Origin: an uncultured Clostridia bacterium
GTDB taxonomy: Bacteria > Bacillota > Clostridia > TANB77 > CAG-508
Direction of reading: 5' to 3'
NCBI GenBank assembly: GCA_944392425.1
Contig: CALXWM010000007.1
Span: 1-43,963, forward strand
Length of the DNA stretch: 43,963 bases
The position numbers were made by a program, and so were the translations under genes. Position 1 is the stretch's first letter, and every line of letters starts with the position of its first letter. Below are positions 1 to 16,751 of the stretch, in pieces. The notes under the pieces are model-generated. The model was not told the DNA's origin and made no database searches. It saw only the letters and a list, made by a program, of their open reading frames with translations.

Positions 1-1353
1 CCAAACTTAGATGTATACAATTATGTAACACAAAGTGAAGCAAGAGCCTTAGCAGAAGGAATGTATAGCAGTGCAAACTATACAAGTAGTTTACCAAGTA
101 GCTATGCATGGGATACAGCACTACAATTCTTAAAACAAACAGGAAATGAAGCATATTTAACAGACTCAAGTCAAGGAAACTACTATAACACAATGCCAGA
201 AGGAAAAACAGAAGCAGGAAGTGTATTAATAGAAACAGGAAAAACAACACCAGTAAAACACTTATATGACATGGGTGGTAACGTATATGAATGGACAACA
301 GAAAGATATTCAAGCCCAGATGCAAGGAAAGTATCTAGAGGAGGATTCTATGGATTTACTTCTACAGATGAACCTGTTATAGGAAGATTTAGCTCATCTA
401 ACACTAGAGACCAAGCAGTAGGCTTTAGAGTAGCATTATTCTTAGGAACAGTAGATAGTGCACCTAAATATATGGATGACCTAAAAGTAGGAGACTATGT
501 AGCATATACTCCAGGCTCAGAAACAAAAAGCAGTTATCCATTAAAAGCATCAGAAAGTGGATATAGCACAGACCAAACAATTTCAAAAGTAGATAATTTG
601 GGCTGGAGAGTACTAAGCATAAATGATGATGGAACAGTAGACTTAATAAGTAGTAGTTTAGCTTCAACTAATACTTTCTACTTTAGAGGTGCACTTGGAT
701 ATAACAATGGTGTATATCTATTAAATGACATAGCAGCTAAGCTATATAGTAATAATAGTCTAGGGGCAACAGCAAGAAGCTTAACAATAGAAGATATAGA
801 AAAAGGAATGAATGAAGCAGGCTTAGAATATGTTCATAGTTATGAAGGTACAGTAGCATACGGAGAGACAAAAACATTTACAGGTTCATATGCATATTAT
901 CCAAATTTATATGCACAGGAAAACGGCTCAGGAATAAATACGACAACGACGAAAACAGACGGAATAGGACAAAGTGATAGCTATTATACAAGCCCTACAA
1001 CAGAAACTTATAGCCAAGCAAGCACAGAGGGATTAACAGTAACGCAGACATATTATACTAGGTCAATGAATAATAGCTATTATAAAAACAGCACATTTTA
1101 CAGCTTAATCCACGGAGTTTCTGATTACCAATGGCTTGCCTCGCGTTATGTCGATGCTTACTCGCCTTATGCGTACTTCGGGCTTCGCTTCGTGACTAGC
1201 AGTTACTTGGGCGGTTACCGCTTGTTCTTCTCGATCAACTACGCGCACGACATTTCTGGCTATCTCCGCCCCGTAGTTTCTCTAAAATCTAATATCCGAT
1301 TAGGCTCAGGAGATGGAAAGAGTAGTTCTACTGCATACCAGATAATAAACTAG
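1..1353 (+). CDS. Surface protein with FGE-sulfatase-like domain and DGR-type variable C-terminus (5' partial)
   Basis: The frame is open from base 1 to TAG at 1351-1353, so the N-terminus lies outside the window; about 450 residues are visible. The first ~150 residues carry the hallmarks of a formylglycine-generating-enzyme (FGE-sulfatase) domain: GGNVYEWTTER, then SRGGF, then a GFRVAL end. That family has a C-type-lectin fold. A second domain follows (LKVGDYVAY, GWRVLSINDDGTVDLIS, GVYLLNDIAAKLYSNN, LGATARSLTIEDIE) and ends in WLASR...LRPVVSL. This architecture recurs in gut Clostridia surface proteins and resembles DUF6273-type domains (recalled, not searched). The 150 bp from the TGG of WLASR to the TCT of PVVS differ sharply in base use from the rest of the gene and look like a DGR variable region. 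No catalytic role is implied; a displayed ligand-binding protein is the inference. A terminator follows at 1579. Confidence 0.85.
   Translation, partial: PNLDVYNYVTQSEARALAEGMYSSANYTSSLPSSYAWDTALQFLKQTGNEAYLTDSSQGNYYNTMPEGKTEAGSVLIETGKTTPVKHLYDMGGNVYEWTTERYSSPDARKVSRGGFYGFTSTDEPVIGRFSSSNTRDQAVGFRVALFLGTVDSAPKYMDDLKVGDYVAYTPGSETKSSYPLKASESGYSTDQTISKVDNLGWRVLSINDDGTVDLISSSLASTNTFYFRGALGYNNGVYLLNDIAAKLYSNNSLGATARSLTIEDIEKGMNEAGLEYVHSYEGTVAYGETKTFTGSYAYYPNLYAQENGSGINTTTTKTDGIGQSDSYYTSPTTETYSQASTEGLTVTQTYYTRSMNNSYYKNSTFYSLIHGVSDYQWLASRYVDAYSPYAYFGLRFVTSSYLGGYRLFFSINYAHDISGYLRPVVSLKSNIRLGSGDGKSSSTAYQIIN
1132..1281 (+). other. Candidate DGR variable region (VR)
   Basis: By hand count only 19 of 150 bases are A (about 13%), against roughly 45% in 961-1020 of the same gene, and G+C rises to just over half. 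Codons fall in two classes. Constant positions use codons without A (TGG CTT GCC TCG CGT, then GTC, GCT, TCG, GCG, TTC, CGC, GTG, TTG, CCC). Nearly all variable positions end in C or T (TAT, GAT, TAC, CCT, ACT, AGC, GGC, ATC, AAC, CAC, GAC, ATT and so on). This is what adenine-specific mutagenesis of AAY codons in a template repeat produces. Arginine is AGA/AGG at every site upstream in this gene but CGT/CGC at all four sites inside. The region lies at the C-terminal end of a C-type-lectin-type protein, the usual DGR target. The 5' limit is approximate. Confidence 0.8.
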
Positions 1354-1371: not shown

Positions 1372-1401
1372 CGGCCTGTAAGGCCTTAGGTCTTACAGCC
1401 G
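1372..1401. repeat. GC-containing hairpin downstream of the variable region
   Basis: CTGTAAG (1376-1382) pairs perfectly with CTTACAG (1392-1398) around a 9-nt loop, and the stem extends with CGG/CCG across a one-base bulge. There is no T-run behind it, so it is not a canonical terminator. It lies 18 nt after the stop codon and about 90 nt after the variable region. Some DGRs need a hairpin/cruciform just 3' of the VR for homing; here the distance is larger, so that role is only a possibility. Confidence 0.5.
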
Positions 1402-14486: not shown

Positions 14487-16751
14487 ATGAACTTTGACTT
14501 TTCAAAAGAGCCAGGAAAAAAACTAGAAAAACAAGAATATGAAACAAAAATGGAGCCAGTTATTTCTATTATTACTCCATTTTACAATAGTGGTAAATAT
14601 ATAAGACAAACAGTAAATTCAATATTAAATCAAACATTTCCTAATTTTGAGTTATTAATTATTGATGATGGTTCAAAAGATGAGGAAAGTCTTAAAGAAC
14701 TAGAAAAAATAGAAAAGCTAGATAGTAGAATAAAAGTATTCCATAAACAAAATGAAGGTTTAGCTGCTACAAGAGACTATGGAGCAAAAAAGGCTTCAAA
14801 ATCTAGTAAATATCTATGCTTTATTGATGATGATGATTTAATTGAACCTACATATTTAGAGTGTTTATATTTTTCATTAATTACAAACCCAAAAGCCTCT
14901 TGGGCATATACTGATTCAGTAGGATTTGAAGGACAAGAATATCTTTGGAATAAATATTTTGATTCAAATAAATTAAAAAAGCAAAATGATTTAGTGGCTT
15001 CTTCTTTAATTAGAAAAGAAGATTTTGAAGCAGTAAACGGATATGAATTAAGAGAAAAAGCTCTAAATGAAGACTGGAACTTTTGGCTTAAGCTAATTGC
15101 TAAAGGCAAGTTCCCTGTGCATGTTAATTTTTATGGATTCTGGTATAGAAGAAAATTGAAATCTAGTGAACTTGCTAGAGTTAAAAATAATCAAAAGAGA
15201 AATAATGAAATAATAAGTGAGTCTGCAAAAAAAATAAAAAAGAGAGTAAAAGCTATACAATATCCAAGATTTAATTATGATTGGGACAAAATAGAAGATA
15301 AAATAAATATTGAGACAAATATAAAAAGGCAAAATAATAATAAAACAAATATTTTAATGATTATTCCTTGGATGGTTATGGGTGGAGCTGATCAATTTAA
15401 TTTTGATTTAATTTCTAGATTAGATAAATCAAAATTTGACATAACAATAGTTTCAACAGAGCCAGCTGTAAATATTTATAGACAAAATTTTGAACAATAT
15501 GCAACAGTTTATGATTTAACTACATTTTTGGATCAAAAATATTGGCCTGCATTTGTAAATTATTTAATAGAAAAAAATAATATTAATATTATTTTAAATA
15601 CAAATAGTGAATTTGGATATAGTATGCTTCCTTATTTAAAAGCAAAGTATGCAAACATACCTATTATAGATTATGTTCATATGGAAGAATGGTATAATCG
15701 TAATGGTGGTTATTCTAGAGATTCAAGCAGTGTAGCTTCTGTTATTGACAAAACTTTAGTATGTAATGAAAATAGTAGAAAAATACTAATGGATTATTTT
15801 GGAAGAAATACTAATGAAGTAGAAACTGTTTATATTGGTGTAGATGAGAAAAAATATGACCCAAGTAAATATAACATTCAAGAATTAAAACAAAAATATA
15901 ATCTACCAGAAGATAAATACATAATTAGCTATATTTGTAGAATTTCGGAGCAAAAAAGACCATTTTTATTATTAGAAGTAGCAAAAAAACTAAAAGAAAA
16001 AAGAGATGATTTCATCATTTTAGTTGTAGGAGATGGAAATTTATTAAATAAAATGAAATCTACTGCAAAAAAATATGGTTTATCAAACAATATAATTTTT
16101 ATGGGAAGAACTAATAAAACTGATGAAATATATGCAATAAGTGATTTAACAATTAATTGTTCTATAAAAGAAGGATTAGCTCTAACAGCATATGAATCTT
16201 TAGCTATGGGTGTACCAGTTGTTTCTAGTGATGTGGGAGGACAAAAAGAACTTATAGATAAAAACACTGGAGTTATTGTTCCTTGTATGCAAGATGAGGA
16301 AGATATACAAAACTTTAGCTACAGTGATGAAGAAGTTTTAAATTATATAAATGCCATAAATAAAGTTATAGAAAATTTAGAAAAATACAAACAAAATTGT
16401 AGAAAAAAGATTTTAAACGGATTTACTATAGATCAAATGGTTATTAAAATGACAAATATATTAAAAGAAACTGCCAAAAATCCAAATAGTAAGAAATGTA
16501 TTTCAAATAATAATATAGATATTTGCAAAGAACTTATTACAAATAGGCTTATAGGAATAAGTGATAAATATGTGTGGGAAGCAAAAGAATACAATAAATT
16601 CTATGGATATTCTACAGACGATATGCAAAATTATAAATTTGAATTATTTAAAGATAAAATGTGGCAACATAAGTGGTATAGAGGAATAATAAAACTATTG
16701 CAAAAAACAGGAATAATGAAGGCTTTAAAAAAAGTATCTAATTTAGAATAA
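14487..16751 (+). CDS. Two-domain glycosyltransferase: GT2 fused to GT4
   Basis: 754 residues from ATG 14487 (AAAGGAAA upstream; the TTG at 14433 lies inside the repeat element and is rejected). The N-terminal GT2 domain (about residues 25-270) has ISIITPFYNSGKYIRQTVNS, DDGSKDEES, CFIDDDDLIEP (DxD-type) and NEDWNFWLKL. The C-terminal GT4 domain (about 290-690) begins ILMIIPWMVMGGADQFNFDL and has ISYICRISEQKRPFLL, VVGDGN and the E-x7-E motif in KEGLALTAYESLAMGVPVV. Such fusions add two sugars in sequence, the GT2 inverting and the GT4 retaining. It is soluble and probably follows the exporter in the same pathway. Confidence 0.9.
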   Translation: MNFDFSKEPGKKLEKQEYETKMEPVISIITPFYNSGKYIRQTVNSILNQTFPNFELLIIDDGSKDEESLKELEKIEKLDSRIKVFHKQNEGLAATRDYGAKKASKSSKYLCFIDDDDLIEPTYLECLYFSLITNPKASWAYTDSVGFEGQEYLWNKYFDSNKLKKQNDLVASSLIRKEDFEAVNGYELREKALNEDWNFWLKLIAKGKFPVHVNFYGFWYRRKLKSSELARVKNNQKRNNEIISESAKKIKKRVKAIQYPRFNYDWDKIEDKINIETNIKRQNNNKTNILMIIPWMVMGGADQFNFDLISRLDKSKFDITIVSTEPAVNIYRQNFEQYATVYDLTTFLDQKYWPAFVNYLIEKNNINIILNTNSEFGYSMLPYLKAKYANIPIIDYVHMEEWYNRNGGYSRDSSSVASVIDKTLVCNENSRKILMDYFGRNTNEVETVYIGVDEKKYDPSKYNIQELKQKYNLPEDKYIISYICRISEQKRPFLLLEVAKKLKEKRDDFIILVVGDGNLLNKMKSTAKKYGLSNNIIFMGRTNKTDEIYAISDLTINCSIKEGLALTAYESLAMGVPVVSSDVGGQKELIDKNTGVIVPCMQDEEDIQNFSYSDEEVLNYINAINKVIENLEKYKQNCRKKILNGFTIDQMVIKMTNILKETAKNPNSKKCISNNNIDICKELITNRLIGISDKYVWEAKEYNKFYGYSTDDMQNYKFELFKDKMWQHKWYRGIIKLLQKTGIMKALKKVSNLE

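Follow-up and report, generated by a model that had tools for sequence, protein, structure and literature searches.

Can a gene be rewritten by a diversity-generating retroelement (DGR) when no reverse transcriptase (RT) and no template repeat (TR) lie beside it? The question is raised by the start of a 43,963-nucleotide stretch, hereafter the window, from an uncultured Clostridia bacterium whose own genome (G000) is a MAG of 1.54 Mb in 70 contigs, 94% complete. The initial annotation placed a DGR variable region (VR) at positions 1132 to 1281, in a surface protein, and stated that the window has neither RT nor TR; we looked for both and found neither. The features on which the argument depends are these:

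1 to 1353, forward strand: 3′ part (450 aa) of a gene for a giant, probably surface-exposed protein, its 5′ end cut by the contig start (ORF open at the 5′ end)
88 to 435, forward strand: FGE-sulfatase-like domain, residues 30-145 (PF03781, E=1e-5), with a VR-like end that is A-rich
475 to 1350, forward strand: C-terminal variable (display) domain of no named family; in sister genera, complete cis DGR cassettes have this domain as their target
1132 to 1281, forward strand: the assigned DGR variable region, the most A-poor 150 bp, differing from the G027 ortholog at TR-A sites
1273 to 1284, forward strand: IMH-like 3′ end, GTAGTTTCTCTA, where TRs read GTAG[A/C]TTCTATA
1376 to 1398, forward strand: retrohoming-type hairpin, CTGTAAGGCCTTAGGTCTTACAG, with a conserved apex, AGGCCTTAGGTCT, at 1381-1393 and a covarying stem

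The encoded protein is 84% identical to the C-terminus of a 3,612-aa protein in the related genome G027 and 64% identical to that of a 3,887-aa protein in G028. The complete G027 ortholog begins with a prepilin-like N-terminus and continues through many Ig/FN3-like repeats to an FGE domain and the terminal variable domain. The prepilin-like N-terminus of the full-length orthologs, with its hydrophobic helix (MKKSESGITLLTLAITIIVMLILAG), was judged by eye, and Pfam N_methyl has no match there. A groEL-like ORF adjoins the giant gene in the contigs of both G027 and G028. The VR of the giant G028 protein is itself not A-poor, and an A-poor VR is found in a separate 397-aa gene on the same contig. 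We infer a role in binding at the cell surface. The variable domain had been described as a domain of the C-type-lectin type, but this description fits at most the FGE domain, and that one is outside the VR. Searches of Pfam, NCBIfam, PHROGs and PDB sequences gave no significant match for the variable domain itself, and its AlphaFold model is unusable (pLDDT 32). The VR-like end of the FGE domain is A-rich and therefore is not an active variable region. Similar FGE domains occur in at least nine further places of the same genome (contigs 1, 5, 6, 10, 13, 24, 31 and 33; L260-L267), and none of them matches by blastn the template of the DGR on contig 28, which is described below.

The composition of the region is largely as first reported. 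Positions 1132 to 1281 contain 19 A (13%), exactly the count originally given, and this is the minimum among all 150-bp windows of the sequence; the 1,131 bases upstream in the same gene are 41% A, not about 45% as had been estimated for the gene. Third codon positions within the region comprise 23 C, 16 T, 10 G and a single A. The constant codons, which were said to avoid A entirely, mostly do so, with one exception, a constant valine codon GTA. The reported switch in arginine codons is confirmed, from AGA or AGG at 11 of 11 upstream sites to CGT or CGC at four of four inside. The main ORFs of the window have 13,429 codons, of which CGC and CGT together make up just 16, and four of these 16 lie within the VR (Fisher p=3e-7).

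An inferred template, in which the presumed mutated codons of the VR were replaced by AAC or AAT, was used as a search query over 390 genomes of the family, and it recovered real TRs next to cis VRs in sister genera; these TRs show the positions of template A. In four TR/VR pairs of the sister genera, 83 of 88 mismatches fall on A. The cis cassettes of G389, G419 and G225 consist of a target gene, a MutS_I-domain gene, bAvd, the TR and an RT with an IGNMTSQ-type motif, while in G375 the stretch read stops within the RT region. When VR positions were classed as A or non-A by a gap-free alignment with three TRs, all from other genera and none the species' own, the window VR was found to differ from its closest ortholog, in G027, at 25 of 40 template-A positions but at only 3 of the 100 non-A ones (p=3e-14). 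The difference at VR position 69 (C/T) lies clearly off any template A. Six A-poor VRs of the genus, compared two by two in 15 pairs, show the same bias without exception (p from 3e-3 to 3e-14). Between the window and G027, codon changes in the VR are 18 nonsynonymous to 1 synonymous, against 49 to 49 in the upstream part of the gene (p=2e-4).

Signals that would guide retrohoming are found at the same end of the gene. The A-poor VRs are closed by GTAGTTTCTCTA or a near variant where the TRs read GTAG[A/C]TTCTATA, a difference of the IMH/IMH* type that is common to the window VR and the cis targets of sister genera. Some 90 nt 3′ of the VR stands the hairpin, with its invariant apex AGGCC...GGTCT; the chance expectation of the AGGCCTTAGGTCT apex in the window is 0.02 with up to one mismatch allowed. 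The apex or a one-base variant is found behind the cis DGR targets of G375, G349 and G028 contig 8, with AGGCCTTTGGTCT in G389 and a longer form in G009. An apex of this type also follows other remote VRs. In cis and remote targets alike, it lies about 104-122 nt past the IMH start where both could be recognised; behind some A-poor VRs, for example those of G023 and G025 contig 44, the apex search found none. Across 13 sequences, 96.9% of the cells in the stem are paired, against 33-54% in slid controls, and 19 cells are compensatory, with both sides changed. In phage BPP-1, a hairpin downstream of the VR is needed for efficient DGR homing, where the stem matters for its structure and the loop for its sequence (PMC3240598). 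The window resembles the BPP-1 target, Mtd, in that a hairpin comes after the VR and is conserved by pairing in its stem and by sequence in its loop, although the phage target is a tail fibre and its loop reads GRNA. In addition, phage DGR hairpins stand 4-34 bp past the VR (PMC3240598), whereas the hairpin described here is farther away and has a longer conserved apex.

Because divergence is restricted to the A sites of independently found templates, and because the IMH-like end and the retrohoming-type hairpin are as at cis DGR targets, positions 1132 to 1281 are, judged from sequence, a genuine DGR variable region, and the original claim to that effect stands. A-site divergence amid nearly unchanged constant codons, with 3 of 100 non-A differences in a gene that is otherwise 12.5% diverged, argues that rewriting from one template continued after the window species and G027 separated. 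Recent or present activity at this VR may be inferred.

Where, then, is the machinery? The assembly of G000 gave no cognate TR, whether searched by blastn with the VR or with the inferred template (which matches the VR alone), with an IUPAC pattern or the conserved 3′ end of the TRs, or through alignments that let template A match anything. The best TR of a sister genus scores 97, compared with about 217-221 for cognate TR/VR pairs. TR 3′ ends of the fitting lineage are missing from G000 and present in G028, G023 and G029, where the TRs that carry them do not match the A-poor VRs tested. Nor was an RT of the sister lineage found in G000. The window locus is thus a DGR target and not a complete DGR, with neither a matching TR nor a cognate RT in the assembly. 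Absence of a template from a complete genome had been named beforehand as evidence against a DGR; the template is indeed absent, but the genome in question is a 94%-complete MAG.

The search in related genomes gave similar results. Remote A-poor targets are found in relatives, three of them in G025 and two in G012, and no matching TR was detected in G012, G023, G025, G027 or G028, five related species with such VRs. Had TRs dropped out at random, as assembly completeness would predict, their joint absence over the six species would have a probability of about 1 in a million, as the product of the missing fractions under assumed independence. The cassette is therefore missing in a systematic way: it is carried on an unbinned element, varies between strains or has truly been lost. 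The DGR on G028 contig 8 was considered as the server of the VR on G028 contig 5 and rejected, since its TR does not fit. A viral, phage or plasmid source was likewise discarded, as no matching TR was found in IMG/VR or in phage or plasmid collections; RT relatives in these collections have less than 60% identity and, among the matches listed, at most about 41%. In species-representative genomes, the VR core pattern returned known relatives only, plus chance matches.

We consider it probable that the window VR belongs to the remote targets of a Clostridia DGR lineage and that the cassette, absent from the assembly, most likely acted in trans. Against this count the lack of a matching TR in the genomes and collections searched, the unlike TR and hairpin and the broken frame of the one DGR RT in G000, and the C/T difference at VR position 69. 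Action in trans is the likely mode because no cassette adjoins the gene in the window or in the stretches read around the giant genes of G027 and G028, which are flanked by other ORFs; the locus is thus cassette-free in three species. Under this explanation, the TR RNA would be copied with errors at A by a DGR of the sister-genus lineage, with its order of target, MutS_I gene, bAvd, TR and IGNMTSQ-bearing RT, and the mutated cDNA would replace the VR by adenine-mutagenic retrohoming, directed to its site by the IMH (1273-1284) and the hairpin (1376-1398). The cassette itself could reside on an unbinned mobile element, at a strain-variable locus or in the missing 6% of the genome. The remote service first proposed for this region is supported in part, by the lack of a nearby RT or TR and by the similar remote targets in relatives. 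The further suggestion, that one remote retroelement serves a family of targets, receives no support from the data on G000: the window VR is the single A-poor region found there (of its paralogs, two on contig 26 and another on contig 15 were measured and are not A-poor), and the sole DGR RT, on contig 28, is accompanied by a non-matching template and another hairpin. It is tempting to be more specific and to place the DGR on a mobile or extrachromosomal element, which would account for its absence from every MAG and would diversify, in several species of one Clostridia genus, giant pilin-like proteins of the chromosome at their tips, acting in trans through the common IMH and AGGCCTTAGGTCT hairpin, but we offer this fuller picture only tentatively.

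The VR might instead be a recent fossil, fixed since the cassette was lost from the species after diversifying the gene. The absence of a cognate TR and RT from six assemblies, two of them 94-96% complete, agrees with such a loss, as do the many paralogs that keep a VR-like protein pattern in ordinary A-rich codons, which is what would be expected once rewriting ends. Nevertheless, the IMH and hairpin are intact, and with the rest of the gene 12.5% diverged, three or fewer differences at 100 non-A positions would be surprising (P=9e-4) next to 25 at 40 template-A positions, so that we regard a fossil as unlikely, though worth serious attention. A cassette that some cells carry in cis, at or near the locus, and that was dropped from the consensus assembly is a poorer explanation still and, in our opinion, improbable. 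The cassette does directly follow the target in sister genera, and there is a precedent in Thiohalocapsa DGR 7, for which such variants were shown by long reads (PMC10907252), but the window continues for 42 kb through other genes without a cassette, and the flanks of the giant genes in G027 and G028, within the stretches read, are equally free of one.

We also weighed service by the DGR RT and Avd on contig 28, the sole ones found in G000, through a second, unassembled TR. This DGR (L004:12801-14108 and 16109-16268) is a cis system with a pilin-like target bearing an FGE-type VR, MutS_I, bAvd, RT and TR. Its TR and the neighbouring VR fit each other, with 17 of 18 differences at A and no other convincing match for the TR, whereas the hairpin of its target differs from that of the window and the reading frame of its RT is interrupted at the IGN motif. 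The TR mismatch, the other hairpin and the broken frame led us to reject it as the server, and even with a second TR its involvement would be very improbable. Finally, an island of codon usage produced by horizontal acquisition or codon selection, with no DGR at all, is compatible with the composition alone but hardly credible, as it would not yield differences confined to template A, an IMH end or a hairpin.

The closest known counterparts are four cis cassettes, in G389, G419, G225 and G375, which represent sister genera within the family. Their target domain is homologous to that of the window, the constant codons of the VR are largely the same, the IMH/IMH* difference is shared and, in G389, G419 and G375, so is the downstream hairpin apex, identical or nearly so. 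Unlike the window, they carry TR, Avd and RT directly after the target. Remote DGR targets as such are already established, among cyanobacterial variable proteins (PMC7517822) and as trans targets in Thiohalocapsa PB-PSB1 (PMC10907252). In both, as here, the VR lies far from the RT and paralogous targets are dispersed, and Thiohalocapsa DGR 7 likewise has VRs for which the reference genome contains no matching TR elsewhere (PMC10907252). Different from ours, those VRs lie on C-type-lectin domains in proteins that are mostly cytosolic or sensors (PMC7517822, PMC10907252), and the cyanobacterial ones are linked to a TR in their own genome (PMC7517822). What is new is a VR without its cassette that sits at the C-terminal end of a pilin-like repeat protein of some 3,600 residues, in uncultured Clostridia, and has a target hairpin of the Clostridia type.

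An RT-anchored survey states that remote targets escape it (PMC8144416), and DGR-diversified proteins are thus undercounted, since surveys based on RT contigs cannot see such targets. The window locus was found without its RT, by base composition alone, and the constant codons of the VR, the IMH end and the covarying hairpin apex together provide a testable handle for finding others. If the VR is in fact served in trans from an unbinned element, surface proteins of the host would be diversified by a separable mobile machine.

Some further observations deserve mention. Paralogs with the same VR-like protein pattern and an A content of 0.23-0.33 are found at L045 (second copy), L048, L049, L051, L053, L055, L057, L059 and, in G000, L042-L043, and the hairpin is still there in at least one A-rich paralog (L015, on G028 contig 5). 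These are possibly retired variable regions, which would form a series for dating the last DGR action.

Four DGR RT genes have one extra C right before the GGTAAT of the IGN..SQ motif, so that the zero frame reads ATA/ATC-CGG-TAA: L002:1470-1510 (G000 contig 28), L069 (G008), L070/L283 (G012) and L297 (G177). Three of them form one close lineage, and that of G177 is separate. CGG occurs once among the 13,429 codons of the window. The extra C may represent either convergent inactivation or a +1 programmed frameshift. On G028 contig 14 (L287, L288; 1492-1710 and 5359-5628), a DGR-like RT is apparently split at HKIGNLTAQ, with its halves about 3.6 kb apart and a 410-aa tyrosine recombinase-like ORF nearby, possibly through an insertion into the RT motif. 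On G028 contig 15 (L284: 39881-40567 and upstream), an RT frame follows, in-frame, a TR-like stretch rich in Asn (NNTNNAYNANFNNGYINNNNVNNNNYVR); this may be another type of DGR, with the TR upstream of the RT.
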